DNA of 11,661 nt, taken from Acidimicrobiia bacterium (GTDB lineage: Bacteria; Actinomycetota; Acidimicrobiia; UBA5794; UBA11373). A program made the position numbers and the translations under genes. The stretch is taken from NCBI GenBank assembly GCA_025456165.1, contig JALOLI010000014.1, positions 1-11,661 on the forward strand, written 5' to 3'. A model generated the notes under the pieces. It worked only from the letters and a program-made list of their open reading frames with translations. It did no database searches and had not been told where the DNA came from. Shown piece by piece: positions 6,335 to 11,369 of this stretch (positions are counted from its first letter, which is position 1; each line of letters starts with the position of its first letter).

Positions 6335-6353
6335 GCCGTTCAGGACGCGGACA

Positions 6354-6415
6354 GGCCCGGAGACACTTCGGCGTCGCCGCCGCCGTGAGAGGACCGGCTC
6401 ACGGATCTCCGGGCC
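6354..6415. ncRNA. Candidate structured RNA element: 10-bp helix closing an inner 7-bp hairpin
   Basis: GGCCCGGAGA (6354-6363) is perfectly complementary to TCTCCGGGCC (6406-6415). Inside lies a second perfect helix, CCGTGAG (6383-6389) with CTCACGG (6398-6404), around an 8-nt loop. Only one base separates its end from the outer helix. A third small stem, GACAC-TTCG-GCGTC at 6362-6375, has one mismatch and reads as a UUCG tetraloop on the plus strand; it competes with the outer helix for two bases. The element could be the 3' structure of the minus-strand micro-ORF transcript, a shared terminator with the FMN reductase, or an independent RNA. The strand is undecided. Confidence 0.4.
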
Positions 6416-6443
6416 CGGTGGTCCGGGTTGGAGTCGCCACCCG

Positions 6444-6490
6444 CCCCGGGTCACCCCGGGGAGCGGCCACCCCTGTGATGGCTGGCCGCT
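6444..6490 (-). terminator. Two abutting perfect hairpins directly after the micro-ORF stop
   Basis: CCCCGGG-TCAC-CCCGGGG (6444-6461) is a 7-bp stem with a 4-nt loop. AGCGGCCA (6462-6469) pairs with TGGCCGCT (6483-6490), an 8-bp stem with a 13-nt loop. No base lies between the two stems. On the minus strand the first stem takes in the last two bases of the micro-ORF stop codon, and the second follows at once. This placement suits termination or 3'-end protection of a short minus-strand mRNA. There is no U-tract. Confidence 0.4.
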
Positions 6491-6533
6491 AGCGCCCGGC
6501 CACCTCCGGGGTCCTGTAAGAACTGCCTATCAC
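6489..6533 (-). CDS. Candidate 14-codon micro-ORF with very strong ribosome-binding site
   Basis: Reading from GTG at 6533, the frame encodes MIGSSYRTPEVAGR and stops at TAG (6489-6491). The case rests on context, not length. GAAAGGAGGTGG ends 8 nt before the GTG, a -10-like TAGCCT lies just upstream, and perfect hairpins start at the stop codon. It is antisense to nothing annotated. It could be a functional micropeptide, a leader-type ORF whose translation controls the RNA folding behind it, or a ribosome-binding decoy. No further minus-strand gene follows before the oppositely oriented reductase, so a classical attenuated operon is unlikely. I do not recognise the peptide with certainty. 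Confidence 0.4.
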   Translation of the reverse strand: MIGSSYRTPEVAGR

Positions 6534-6536
6534 TAT

Positions 6537-6552
6537 GGGACCACCTCCTTTC
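6537..6552 (-). promoter_or_regulatory. Near-maximal Shine-Dalgarno sequence
   Basis: The minus strand reads GAAAGGAGGTGGTCCC. The 16S rRNA 3' end (GGATCACCTCCTTTC) could pair along 15 consecutive bases with one G-U pair. GGAGG ends 10 nt before the GTG at 6533, at the long end of the normal range. No other ribosome-binding site seen in the window approaches this length. Confidence 0.55.
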
Positions 6553-6565
6553 ACCGTTGCCGGGA

Positions 6566-6571
6566 AGGCTA
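6566..6571 (-). promoter_or_regulatory. Putative -10 hexamer for the minus-strand micro-ORF
   Basis: The minus strand reads TAGCCT (TANNNT), 13 bases upstream of the Shine-Dalgarno sequence. Transcription would begin around 6558 and give a short leader. No good -35 box is seen at the usual 16-18 bp distance. Confidence 0.3.
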
Positions 6572-6667: not shown

Positions 6668-8050
6668 ATGGCCGCCTCTCGCCGCTGCGCCGTCCTGCTC
6701 GCCCTGTTGCTGGCGGCCGCCGCCTGCGGTGGTGGATCCGGCAACGCCACCACGACCTCGGCGCCCACGACGACCACGACGACTGCCGCCACCACCACCA
6801 CGGCGGCCACCACCACCAGCAGCACCGTCCCGCCCGACACCGGGCCCCTCGCCGGGCTGCTCGCCGACCCGGTGGCCGACCCGCTGCTGGGCTCGGGTTC
6901 CTACGCAATGGAGTACGGCGACGCGACGCGCGCCTTTGTCGTCTCCCAAGCCGCCCTGACGGCGGCGGGCGGCAGGCTGGTCCTGGCTCCCTTCGACCCG
7001 GCGCCGGCCACCACCGGAATCGGCACCGATCAGATCCTGCTCGAGGCGTGGATCGAGCCCCACGCCGGCGTGGCCCCCCGGGCCATCGTCCTGTACGGCC
7101 TCGGCGTCGGAGGGTGGAACCCCTACGTGACGATCACCGCCGAATCCATCCTCGAGTACTTGCTGACCACCACCGACTACCAGGCCCGGCAGCCACAGGG
7201 GCCGGTGGACGTCCGCACCACGCCCACCGCCTTCGATTGGACGGGGAGCGCCCACTTCATCGCCGACGTGGCCGTCTTCGCCCTCCCCGCCGACAACTCC
7301 CCCGCCTACGAGGGGCAGATCGAATGCACCTACGTCGGCAGCCTGGAGTGCGAGACCCTGTCCGACGACGGGATCCTGCGGCCGGGCGATGAGGGAGAGG
7401 CCGTGGAGGCTCTGCAAGACGCCCTCGCGGACCTGGGCTTCTACGCCGGTGCCGGCGAGGGCATCTACGACGAGGCAACGGAGGAGGCCGTCCGCCTCTT
7501 CCAGCGGGACTACCGCCTCGCGGTCGACGGCAGGGCCGGGCCGCAGACGCTGAACCTGATCGACGACGTGGTTGCGGGGCGCTCGGACATCGTGATGGCT
7601 TCGCAGGAGGGAGTGGGCGAGATCCTCTTCGGCACCGCTGCCGACGCCGCCCGCGCCGCCCTCATCGCCGTCTTCGGGGCCCCGGACAACTCGACCGGCT
7701 GGTTCTCCAGTCCCTGCAGCGGCGCCGACTGGCTCGAGATCAGCTGGGACGGGTTCACCGCCATCTTCACCGACCGCAACGGCTCACGGCAGTTCGACGG
7801 CTGGGAAGTCGGCGACCTGCAGGACCTGCCCGCCTGGCTCTACTTCGCCGGGGGCATCCGGCCGTCGTGGCGCTGGGCCGACTTCGAGGACATGGGGGCC
7901 GGCTTCGATCCCACCTACGGCGCCTTCTGGTACCACCACGACCTCGGATACAACAACGGCCGGTTCGTGAACCCGCCGTCTGACCCACCGGCCGCCGGGG
8001 CCCGCATCAGCGGCTTCGGCACCGGGACCGGGGCTTTCGTCAGCTGCTGA
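6668..8050 (+). CDS. Secreted lipoprotein with peptidoglycan-binding domain
   Basis: This is a 460-residue protein. A lipoprotein signal peptide (RR then LLALLLAAAAC) has its lipobox cysteine at C20. A Thr/Ala-rich spacer (27-53) crosses the wall. Residues about 58-230 form a domain I do not recognise, with a close cysteine pair C220/C228. Residues about 236-298 are a PG_binding_1 domain (LRPGDEGEAVEALQDALADL, then DGRAGPQT), which anchors to peptidoglycan. The C-terminal domain (about 314-460) begins GVGEILFGTAADAARAAL, resembling a module common at the ends of actinobacterial secreted proteins. It contains C350 and the very last residue C460, a plausible disulfide. The ATG at 6668 is fixed by GGAGG (6657-6661) with a 6-nt spacer and by the signal peptide. 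No catalytic motif is evident, so a structural or wall-sensing role is only a guess. Confidence 0.9.
   Translation: MAASRRCAVLLALLLAAAACGGGSGNATTTSAPTTTTTTAATTTTAATTTSSTVPPDTGPLAGLLADPVADPLLGSGSYAMEYGDATRAFVVSQAALTAAGGRLVLAPFDPAPATTGIGTDQILLEAWIEPHAGVAPRAIVLYGLGVGGWNPYVTITAESILEYLLTTTDYQARQPQGPVDVRTTPTAFDWTGSAHFIADVAVFALPADNSPAYEGQIECTYVGSLECETLSDDGILRPGDEGEAVEALQDALADLGFYAGAGEGIYDEATEEAVRLFQRDYRLAVDGRAGPQTLNLIDDVVAGRSDIVMASQEGVGEILFGTAADAARAALIAVFGAPDNSTGWFSSPCSGADWLEISWDGFTAIFTDRNGSRQFDGWEVGDLQDLPAWLYFAGGIRPSWRWADFEDMGAGFDPTYGAFWYHHDLGYNNGRFVNPPSDPPAAGARISGFGTGTGAFVSC
6746..6826 (+). repeat. Low-complexity ACC/ACG-rich tract encoding the Thr linker
   Basis: Imperfect reiterations of threonine codons (ACC, ACG) with interspersed GCC encode residues 27-53 of the lipoprotein. 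This is a coding microsatellite-like tract, probably variable in length between strains, and not a CRISPR or regulatory repeat. Confidence 0.75.
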
Positions 8051-8113: not shown

Positions 8114-8296
8114 TCAGGCCTTGGGAGTCGGCACGGGGATGCGCGCCGGCTCGGGCCGGGGCTGGTAGTGCCGCCAGCAGTACTCGTTCTTGTTGTAGCG
8201 GGAGATCAGGGTGCTGCACCCCTTGTGGGCACAGTGGCGGCCCCCGTCGTAGACCTTCTTGGGGCGCCGTCCCGCCACGTTCTTGATGGAACTCAC
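8114..8296 (-). CDS. Small Cys/His-motif protein, putative zinc-binding
   Basis: This 60-residue basic protein has four spaced metal-ligand residues, C22-x4-C27-x12-C40-x2-H43, in the segment CAHKGCSTLISRYNKNEYC. The shape CxxxGCxTxLSxYNxxxxCxxH recurs in small actinobacterial proteins and at the ends of some regulators, so I take the gene as real and zinc-binding. Its target (RNA, DNA or protein) is unknown. A Lys/Arg-rich N-terminus and a Pro-rich tail flank the core. GTG at 8296 is the outermost start in the frame, with a CATCCT hexamer 6 nt before it that could be a weak -10. GTG at codon 7 is an alternative. It has no signal peptide. It is divergent from the alcohol dehydrogenase gene. 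Confidence 0.75.
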   Translation of the reverse strand: MSSIKNVAGRRPKKVYDGGRHCAHKGCSTLISRYNKNEYCWRHYQPRPEPARIPVPTPKA

Positions 8297-10331: not shown

Positions 10332-11369
10332 ATGGAGACGGCGGCGCCCACCCGCTACTGGCACCTGCGCGAGGACGGCCGGGTGCAGTGCGACCTCTGC
10401 CCGCGTCACTGTGCCCTGCGCGAGGGGCAGCGGGGCCGGTGCTTCGGCCGGGCCCGCCGCGGCGACGCCATAGTCCTCACCACCTACGGCCGGTCGAGCG
10501 GCTTCGCCGTGGACCCCATCGAGAAGAAGCCCCTGTTCCACTTCCTGCCGGGAAGCCGGGTGCTCTCCTTCGGCACGGCCGGGTGCAACCTGGCGTGCCG
10601 CTTCTGCCAGAACTGGGACATCGCCAGGGCGGTGGAGGACGAGGTCCTGGGAGCCGCTGCTTCGCCGGAGGAGATCGCCGCCCTGGCCGTGTCGCTCGGC
10701 TGTCCCAGCGTGGCCTTCACCTACAACGACCCCGTGGCCTTCCACGAGTATGCCGTGGACACCGCCCGGGCCTGCCGGGAGCAGGGCCTCGCCACGGTGG
10801 CGGTCACCGCCGGCTACGTGGACCCCGAGCCGCGAGCGGAGTTCTACGGCCTCATGGACGCGGCCAACATCGACTTGAAGGCCTTCGACGACGGCTTCTA
10901 CCGGCGCTGGTGCGGGGGGCGACTGGCCCCGGTGCTGGAGACCCTGGAGTCCGTGGCCCAGAACCCCGCCACCTGGCTGGAGGTGACCACCCTCCTCATC
11001 CCCGGCCTGAACGACTCCCCGGCGGAGGTGAGCGCCCTCAGCAATTGGGTGGCCGGTCACCTCGGCCCGGCTACCCCCCTGCACTTCACCGCCTTCCACC
11101 CCGCCTTCCGGATGACGGATCGTCCTTCCACCCCGCCCGCCACCCTGGCCGGGGCCCGGCGTCTCGCCCGGGAGGCAGGCCTGCAGTTCGTCTACACCGG
11201 CAACGTGCGCGACCCGGAGGGGCAATCCACTCGCTGTCCGGATTGCGGCACCGTGCTGGTGGGCCGCGACGGCTACCAGATCACCGCCTGGGGGCTGGCG
11301 AGCCGGGGCCGCTGCGGCGGCTGCGGCCGGGCCTGCCCGGGACGCTTCGAAAGCGATCCGGCGCGCTAG
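10332..11369 (+). CDS. amrS: AmmeMemoRadiSam-system radical SAM enzyme
   Basis: This 345-residue protein is full length for the AmrS family. The N-terminus carries C20-x2-C23-x3-C27 and C37 (CDLCPRHC ... GRC), the family's extra cysteines. The radical SAM cluster motif is C85-x3-C89-x2-C92 in GCNLACRFCQNW, which binds [4Fe-4S] and SAM. Further conserved pieces are SVAFTYNDPVAFHEY, NIDLKAFDDGFY and IPGLNDS. A C-terminal zinc-ribbon-like segment has CPDCG and CGGCG. In other genomes the partners are AMMECR1 and Memo proteins; neither is in this window, and the reaction is poorly defined. The start is ambiguous. ATG 10332 gives the usual family N-terminus and has GATCAT 6 nt upstream. GTG 10299 would add 11 residues and also has a -10-like CATCCT 6 nt upstream. 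Confidence 0.92.
   Translation: METAAPTRYWHLREDGRVQCDLCPRHCALREGQRGRCFGRARRGDAIVLTTYGRSSGFAVDPIEKKPLFHFLPGSRVLSFGTAGCNLACRFCQNWDIARAVEDEVLGAAASPEEIAALAVSLGCPSVAFTYNDPVAFHEYAVDTARACREQGLATVAVTAGYVDPEPRAEFYGLMDAANIDLKAFDDGFYRRWCGGRLAPVLETLESVAQNPATWLEVTTLLIPGLNDSPAEVSALSNWVAGHLGPATPLHFTAFHPAFRMTDRPSTPPATLAGARRLAREAGLQFVYTGNVRDPEGQSTRCPDCGTVLVGRDGYQITAWGLASRGRCGGCGRACPGRFESDPAR

Follow-up and report, generated by a model that had tools for sequence, protein, structure and literature searches.

We describe here a small RNA gene, found across the Actinomycetota and usually present in a single copy, whose short open reading frame (ORF) supplies strands of the RNA's own fold. Comparison of relatives supports selection for translation of this ORF, and covariation shows, at the level of predicted pairs, that its last codons form a helix (P2) with a downstream arm and that its middle forms a pseudoknot with the loop of a distal hairpin. 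The family is already known as a 'non-coding' small RNA (sRNA), Ms_IGR-5; what we add is a conserved frame folded into its own pseudoknot. We hold it somewhat better than even that the RNA acts as an autonomous translation-gated switch, one that would report or capture initiating ribosomes.

Layout of the gene

The gene lies on the minus strand of an 11,661-nucleotide stretch of an Acidimicrobiia genome (GenBank assembly GCA_025456165.1, contig JALOLI010000014.1), the whole of which we call the window; positions refer to the window, and the RNA features are all on its minus strand. An earlier note on this DNA had pointed to a TAGCCT box, a Shine-Dalgarno (SD) box, a GTG-initiated ORF ending in TAG and an 8-bp hairpin, each of which is present where it had been placed. 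The TAGCCT box, a -10 element, occupies 6566..6571, here 23 nt before the GGAGG of the SD box, and transcription probably starts at about 6557-6560. The SD box, GAAAGGAGGTGGTCCC (6537..6552), is followed by an ORF of 14 codons (6489..6533) that starts with GTG at 6533 and reads GTG ATA GGC AGT TCT TAC AGG ACC CCG GAG GTG GCC GGG CGC TAG, that is, (V/M)IGSSYRTPEVAGR with TAG at 6491-6489; on the minus strand the ORF is the last part of a longer frame that is open from 6908 to 6489. Within the ORF lie the strand AGGACC (6510..6515), whose pseudoknot with the loop of hairpin P4 would compete with a putative pairing to the SD tail (P1), and an internal SD-like GAGGUG (6501..6506), in which the last G of GAGG stands 8 nt before the last sense codon.

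Several predicted helices involve the end of the ORF or lie beyond it. The 5' arm of P2 and P2', GGTGGCCGGG CGCTA (6490..6504), was identified by RNAalifold and pair counts and takes in two bases of the stop. The same stop carries hairpin P3 (6462..6490), whose arms AGCGGCCA (6490-6483) and TGGCCGCT (6469-6462) pair perfectly over 8 bp, the first two bases being the AG of the stop codon; the inverted-repeat listing has it as an 11-nt pair that is 91% complementary. A hairpin recurs at this position in relatives, judged by eye, with variable sequence. The hairpin first noticed at the stop is therefore present, as P3, but it is only the variable element, and the conserved partners of the ORF lie downstream, at 6439-6417 and 6395-6390. 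These comprise the 3' arm of P2', TGGCG with the conserved (T)GGCGACUCCAA (GGCGAAUCCA in other clades; 6428..6439, from the alignments and RNAalifold), the 3' arm of P2, CCCGGACCACC (6417..6427, from pair counts), and the P4 loop GGTCCT (6395-6390), which covaries with the class of the ORF segment. P4 itself (CCGTGAG/CTCACGG, 6383..6404) has double changes in six of its seven stem pairs, with 81.3% of cells paired. A 3'-domain closing stem, GGCCCGGAGA/TCTCCGGGCC (6354..6415), is a 10-bp perfect inverted repeat in which four pairs are predicted with double changes, and probably marks the end of the RNA. The whole RNA, whose ends are approximate, spans about 213 nt (6346..6558) according to a cmscan match over the full model of a homologous Rfam family (below). 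The unit does not stop at 6462, as had been supposed; the conserved RNA reaches to about 6346 and is roughly twice as long. Against dinucleotide shuffles the RNA strand folds with a z of -2.5, and the opposite strand also folds better than its shuffles (z -1.93).

The 16S rRNA of the nearest genome (G001, locus L366) ends in ...GGCTGGATCACCTCCTTTCT. With this tail the SD box GAAAGGAGGTGGTCC forms 15 consecutive pairs, 14 Watson-Crick and one G.U, which leaves one mismatch to the exact complement. As the earlier note held, the match is unrivalled in the window, being the sole site within 3 mismatches on either strand. Shuffled windows contain 0.20 such sites on average, at least one occurring in 37 of 200 shuffles, so that the window on its own is suggestive and not decisive as a case against chance. 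The question is settled by the relatives, because box, ORF frame and stop recur across the phylum, the SD being near-invariant in alignments A2 and A3; a chance origin, which had been called unattractive, can be ruled out.

A phylum-wide RNA family

An Rfam scan of the window at the gathering threshold gave no match. Aligned by cmscan with RF02471 (Ms_IGR-5), the window scores 28.6 bits (E 5.7e-5 to 7.3e-5) over model positions 1-184 of 184; this is significant full-length homology, and we regard the element as homologous to Ms_IGR-5 on sequence grounds, but it is a homologue and not a curated member because the score falls below the gathering score of 45 bits. The earlier note, right about the parts of the gene, had missed this existing family. 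In the closely related genome G001 this RNA is the only match of RF02471 (E 3.5e-5). Translated by eye, the Ms_IGR-5 consensus presents its elements in the order seen here: first an SD, then a frame opened by UUG, GAGGUGgC and finally a stop. The family differs in that Rfam types it as an sRNA gene, leaves the 3' arm of P2 unpaired and has no pseudoknot in its model.

An exact pattern made of the SD, GAGGTGGC and CGCTAG found at least 120 loci, and all 120 among the pattern matches listed are of actinobacterial origin. At one of them, L008, the ORF specifies a peptide identical in all 14 residues to that of the window. The two share a block that extends from the -10 region through the whole of the 3' stem, whereas the flanks differ. 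In a sample of 396 Actinomycetota genomes the Rfam model finds matches in 85 at E up to 0.01, 35 of them above the cut-off; as it misses 3 of 12 genomes in which the pattern occurs, the lack of a match is no proof. We also used a model, R1, built from alignment A2, which holds 33 diverse loci including the window (35 were chosen; L048 was empty and L036 was left out). R1 has matches in 148 of the 396 genomes, over a third of the sample, five of which have weak matches alone (E 0.001-0.01), and exactly one match in 145 of the 148; within the class to which the nearest genome belongs, the corresponding figures are 66/148 genomes and one match in 65 of the 66. The window scores 89.6 bits, being itself one of the 33 training rows, and shows the traits of the extended family: the SD, an in-frame ORF, GAGGUG, a stop placed in a stem, and P2. 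On this evidence the RNA gene is found across the Actinomycetota and is usually single-copy.

Earlier work has met the family as an sRNA. The S. lividans annotation includes Ms_IGR-5, backed by RNA-seq (PMC8079986); in S. avermitilis it is listed among the sRNA units (PMC8780764), and in M. smegmatis IGR-5 overlaps ncMSMEG15794c (PMC10454040). Ribosomal reads are reported on the MS_IGR-5 homologues of both M. abscessus and M. smegmatis, in a paper whose authors warn that protection of a non-coding RNA does not have to mean translation (PMC4974804). Our searches of the open-access literature gave mentions of annotation, expression and footprints; no paper listed there described the reading frame, its P2 and pseudoknot pairings, or what the RNA does.

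One other family was considered. CC2171 (RF01867), an alphaproteobacterial sRNA from Caulobacter, has a similar 5' end, GAAAGGAGGUGAUCC, with nearly the same SD; it differs in that the window scores 17.2 bits against its cut-off of 75. Its model has no match in G001 and, among 14 control genomes, matches Caulobacter vibrioides only. We rejected kinship, the match being confined to the SD and a short hairpin.

A reading frame kept open

The frame was followed in 273 distinct SD-to-stop sequences. Repeats of identical sequences were left out, as were L208 and L214 (Rfam hits lacking the anatomy), L048 and L205 (no SD near the end of the stretch), L359 (a partial match), and L356, L358 and L364, in which our pattern finds no GAGG-type anchor and which make up 3 of 121 R1 loci; by eye, L356 and L358 preserve the layout and L364 looks false.

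The start-to-stop frame is kept in all 273. In 240 of them an in-frame ATG, GTG or TTG stands 5-14 nt after GGAGG; the remaining 33, including L162, L169, L170, L180 and L207, have a near-cognate start alone (CTG, ATC, ATT, ATA or ACG), an arrangement behind a near-maximal SD that we take to be reminiscent of infC. The start is other than ATG at 183 of the 273 loci. The other frames offer far fewer starts, 22 canonical and 39 near-cognate in +1, and 0 and 1 in +2. When the loop between the SD and GGAC was permuted as a control, canonical starts appeared at a mean of 33.8 loci (maximum 47), and at 82.4 (maximum 102) with near-cognates counted, figures to be read with the caution that kinship among the sequences inflates this and every other shuffle test here. 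The excess holds for the 173 loci found by RNA models and not by the ORF-containing pattern, where 147 canonical and 26 near-cognate starts compare with shuffled means of 21.0 (maximum 35) for canonical starts and 50.9 (maximum 68) with near-cognates; R1 was trained on ORF-bearing loci, yet requires neither a start codon nor a frame. It also holds for 33 mutually diverse loci, with 31 canonical and 2 near-cognate starts against a shuffled canonical mean of 4.3 and a maximum of 11.

The stops are TAG in 225, TGA in 37 and TAA in 11 of the 273, TAG and GAGGTG being present by construction in the 100 pattern-found loci. The ORFs are 10-18 codons long, five of the 26 loci of the window clade show a 3-nt gap between start and GGAC, and GAGGUG stands 15 nt from the stop in 257 of 273. 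One clade (L184, L189, L190, L193, L200, L354) has one base fewer following GAGGTG, a one-base shift despite which a start-to-stop ORF is retained. The ribosome-binding site, start and frame are conserved among relatives, and the comparison supports selection for translation of the ORF.

Codons as structural strands

Left unguided, RNAalifold joined GGUGGCUGY...CGCU, at the end of the ORF, to GGCG...GRCAGYCACC in the downstream arm, and this P2/P2' pairing was recovered both in the diverse set and in the window clade. Of the P2/P2' cells 93.9% are paired, compared with 85.8% after shuffling, and cells with double changes number 21 against 4.8. For P2, P2', the pseudoknot and P4 together in the window clade the values are 93.9% against 89.8% and 38 against 9.0; of the 38, 13 fall on a single pair of P2 and 6 on the pseudoknot, the others all belong to P4, and P2' has none. 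In some analyses, including that of the pseudoknot, the P2 arms were placed partly by complementarity.

The pseudoknot was followed through variants of the ORF segment, 31 of the 273 loci being unplaceable. GGAC in the ORF is accompanied by GUCC in the P4 loop at 185 of 190 loci. Where the ORF has cGACC the loop has GGUCG at 10/10 loci (the same word occurs in 49/190 of the GGAC class); GUGAC goes with GUCAC at 12/14 (10/190), GUCC being also present in 7 of the 14; AGACC goes with GGUCU at 5/11 (22/190), and GGAU with AUCC at 2/2 (41/190). Perfect hexamers between ORF and loop occur at 75 of 242 loci, against a mean of 17.2 and a maximum of 29 when the regions are redistributed among loci. 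L184, L189, L190 and L354 have no matching P4 loop word, and the P4 loop and pseudoknot appear to have been lost in a clade of which these four are examples. For P1, the pairing of the SD tail with GGACC of the ORF, no covariation was found, 97.7% being paired in the window clade exactly as in the shuffles; as the SD hardly varies, covariation is uninformative here.

The comparative evidence shows, by predicted pairing, the last codons of the ORF in P2 and its middle in the pseudoknot. Because the same nucleotides double as codons and as strands of these structures, translation and folding should exclude each other. The suggestion that translation controls the folding of the RNA has been borne out to the extent that both P2 and the pseudoknot draw on ORF nucleotides.

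Promoter and neighbourhood

A TANNNT hexamer lies 21-23 nt before GGAGG at 163 of 272 loci, compared with a mean of 32.4 and a maximum of 46 at any of 18 positions in composition-shuffled upstream sequences. This fixed distance to the SD upholds the -10 box, and comparison across loci shows the RNA to have its own promoter, insofar as sequence conservation can identify one. Downstream, the closest gene shares the strand of the RNA at 50 loci and lies on the opposite strand at 56 (crude ORF calls, with 106 of 121 loci yielding one), a split that does not look leader-like. The window's own downstream neighbour is convergent to the RNA. The proposal of a stand-alone minus-strand unit agrees with both the promoter-like box and this lack of a preferred orientation.

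The DNA just upstream of the RNA in L008 resembles, by eye, the end of a small protein gene that in the window lies at 8114-8296 on the minus strand, and a gene for a peptidoglycan-binding protein (6668-8050, plus strand) stands between that gene and the RNA. This suggests an insertion in the window. Elsewhere in the window, the plus-strand gene at 10332-11369 encodes a Radical SAM protein (Pfam Radical_SAM) with CxxC pairs near its C-terminus, which presumably resembles AmmeMemoRadiSam-type enzymes.

Possible alternative closure of the Shine-Dalgarno box

The 3' arm of P2 has a second possible partner. Its GGACCACC (6424-6417) is an 8-nt complement of GGUGGUCC in the SD and could alternatively close the box over 8 bp; the A of GGACCACC is bulged in P2 yet invariant in 26/26 members of the window clade. 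Across the family, self-complements to the SD of at least 8 nt occur at 51 of 267 loci, against 7 expected, and are unevenly distributed. At L156, L206, L213 and L319 the stop is followed by GGACCACCTCC, an anti-SD mimic that nearly reproduces the 16S tail and is complementary to the locus's own SD.

In folding calculations on the window RNA the P2 and SD-closed folds are predicted to compete. When each is forced they lie 3.7 kcal/mol apart with the SD-closed fold favoured, no credit being given for the pseudoknot, and in the predicted ensemble, again free of pseudoknots, the pairing of SD and GGACCACC has a probability of 0.91-0.97 and the outer P2 pairs of 0.0. When 30 nt around the stop were held unpaired, SD closure did not rise and fell from ~0.95 to ~0.45. 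The closing step of the order of events that we propose below is thus not supported by the folding calculation.

Discussion

Because the strands of the ORF are those of the helix and the pseudoknot, any ribosome that translates the ORF has to unfold the RNA, and the folded RNA in turn has to stand in the ribosome's way. From this, and from the comparative evidence, we arrive at the switch as the reading we lean towards. With its 15 pairs the SD would capture a 30S subunit, in many cases next to a weak start codon (UUG, GUG or a near-cognate), and the ribosome would read about a dozen codons and terminate in the stem. There, GAGGUG at SD spacing, 8 nt from the P-site codon, may hold it, and in the window clade the GGACCACC arm, common to P2 and to the SD-closing helix, could block a second ribosome. 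Such an RNA would count, capture or report initiating ribosomes. The fullest version, a counter of one ribosome in which SD capture is followed by melting of the pseudoknot by codons of indifferent sequence, a hold at the stop and closure of entry, is put forward tentatively, as a possibility that we do not expect to hold in every step; we know of no earlier description of such a system.

The frame itself invites the reading that a micropeptide of 10-18 residues is the functional output, as the earlier note had allowed. In its favour are the conserved frame and recurrent C-terminal residues (among the 257 loci with 15-nt spacing, E occurs at every one, V at 256 and T at 232), and the frequency of Ser at -10 (79/257) and -11 (69/257), with both Ser codon families used at -10, leaves some room for a peptide effect. 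The codons argue otherwise. GAG (257/257) and GTG (254/257) are fixed at third positions too, an invariance favoured by the anchor pattern GAGGTG (used with fallbacks), and codons 2-4 of ORFs of 12, 13 and 14 codons have no excess of variation at their third positions. Codon -2 in the window clade is Gly or Glu in a ratio of 13:13 with the opposite base covarying without exception (GC 13, AU 13), and the one-base-shift clade reads the motif as SGG with its ORF preserved. Judging by the codon statistics and the compensated amino-acid change, conservation does not seem to lie in the peptide, and we think a micropeptide gene improbable. The idea that the ORF is incidental, and that ribosome binding at the SD serves to shield an sRNA that is in other respects non-coding, suits the position of the SD at the extreme 5' end and the sRNA annotation in the literature, and the B. 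subtilis aprE leader is reportedly a precedent for a 5' stabiliser of this kind. An in-frame start and an open frame throughout the 273 sequences are not demanded by binding alone, and mere stabilisation seems improbable to us as well.

More deserving of attention, if still unlikely, is a decoy for ribosomes or 30S subunits, in which the RNA would titrate subunits through its extreme SD and a slowly terminating mini-ORF and would not itself be switched. The 15-pair SD, the prevalence of starts other than ATG, the fixed distance from GAGGUG to the stop and the single match in nearly all positive genomes all agree with it; titration would, however, require a very high abundance of the RNA, and P2 and the pseudoknot would not need to be made of ORF nucleotides. 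The combination of an ORF with alternative hairpins also resembles an attenuator, that is, a cis-acting leader of a neighbouring gene. Here the orientation of the neighbours counts against it, as do the convergent gene in the window and the flanks that differ between the window and L008, and we regard a leader as highly improbable. Micropeptide, leader and mere 5' stabiliser are all less likely than the translation-gated switch.

Two further kinds of known system are comparable. SgrS and RNAIII are dual-function sRNAs, regulatory RNAs that are also translated, and the present RNA is like them in being a stand-alone, putatively regulatory RNA with a translated ORF, for which there is the comparative evidence given above, along with the ribosomal reads in print for homologues. 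It is unlike them in that the coding nucleotides are here the structural ones and the peptide sequence seems little conserved. With leader-ORF attenuators and regulatory upstream ORFs it would share the principle that the position of a ribosome on a short ORF selects an RNA fold; it differs in belonging to an RNA family with no consistent downstream gene in cis.

The family thus offers a testable case in which translation itself, and not the peptide, appears to be selected. If the counter of one ribosome were true, the RNA would be a genetically encoded device that senses or titrates the ribosomes available, with neither a protein product of its own nor a target in cis. The family may show by what means Streptomyces, mycobacteria and other Actinomycetota gauge their supply of ribosomes or the initiation of translation.
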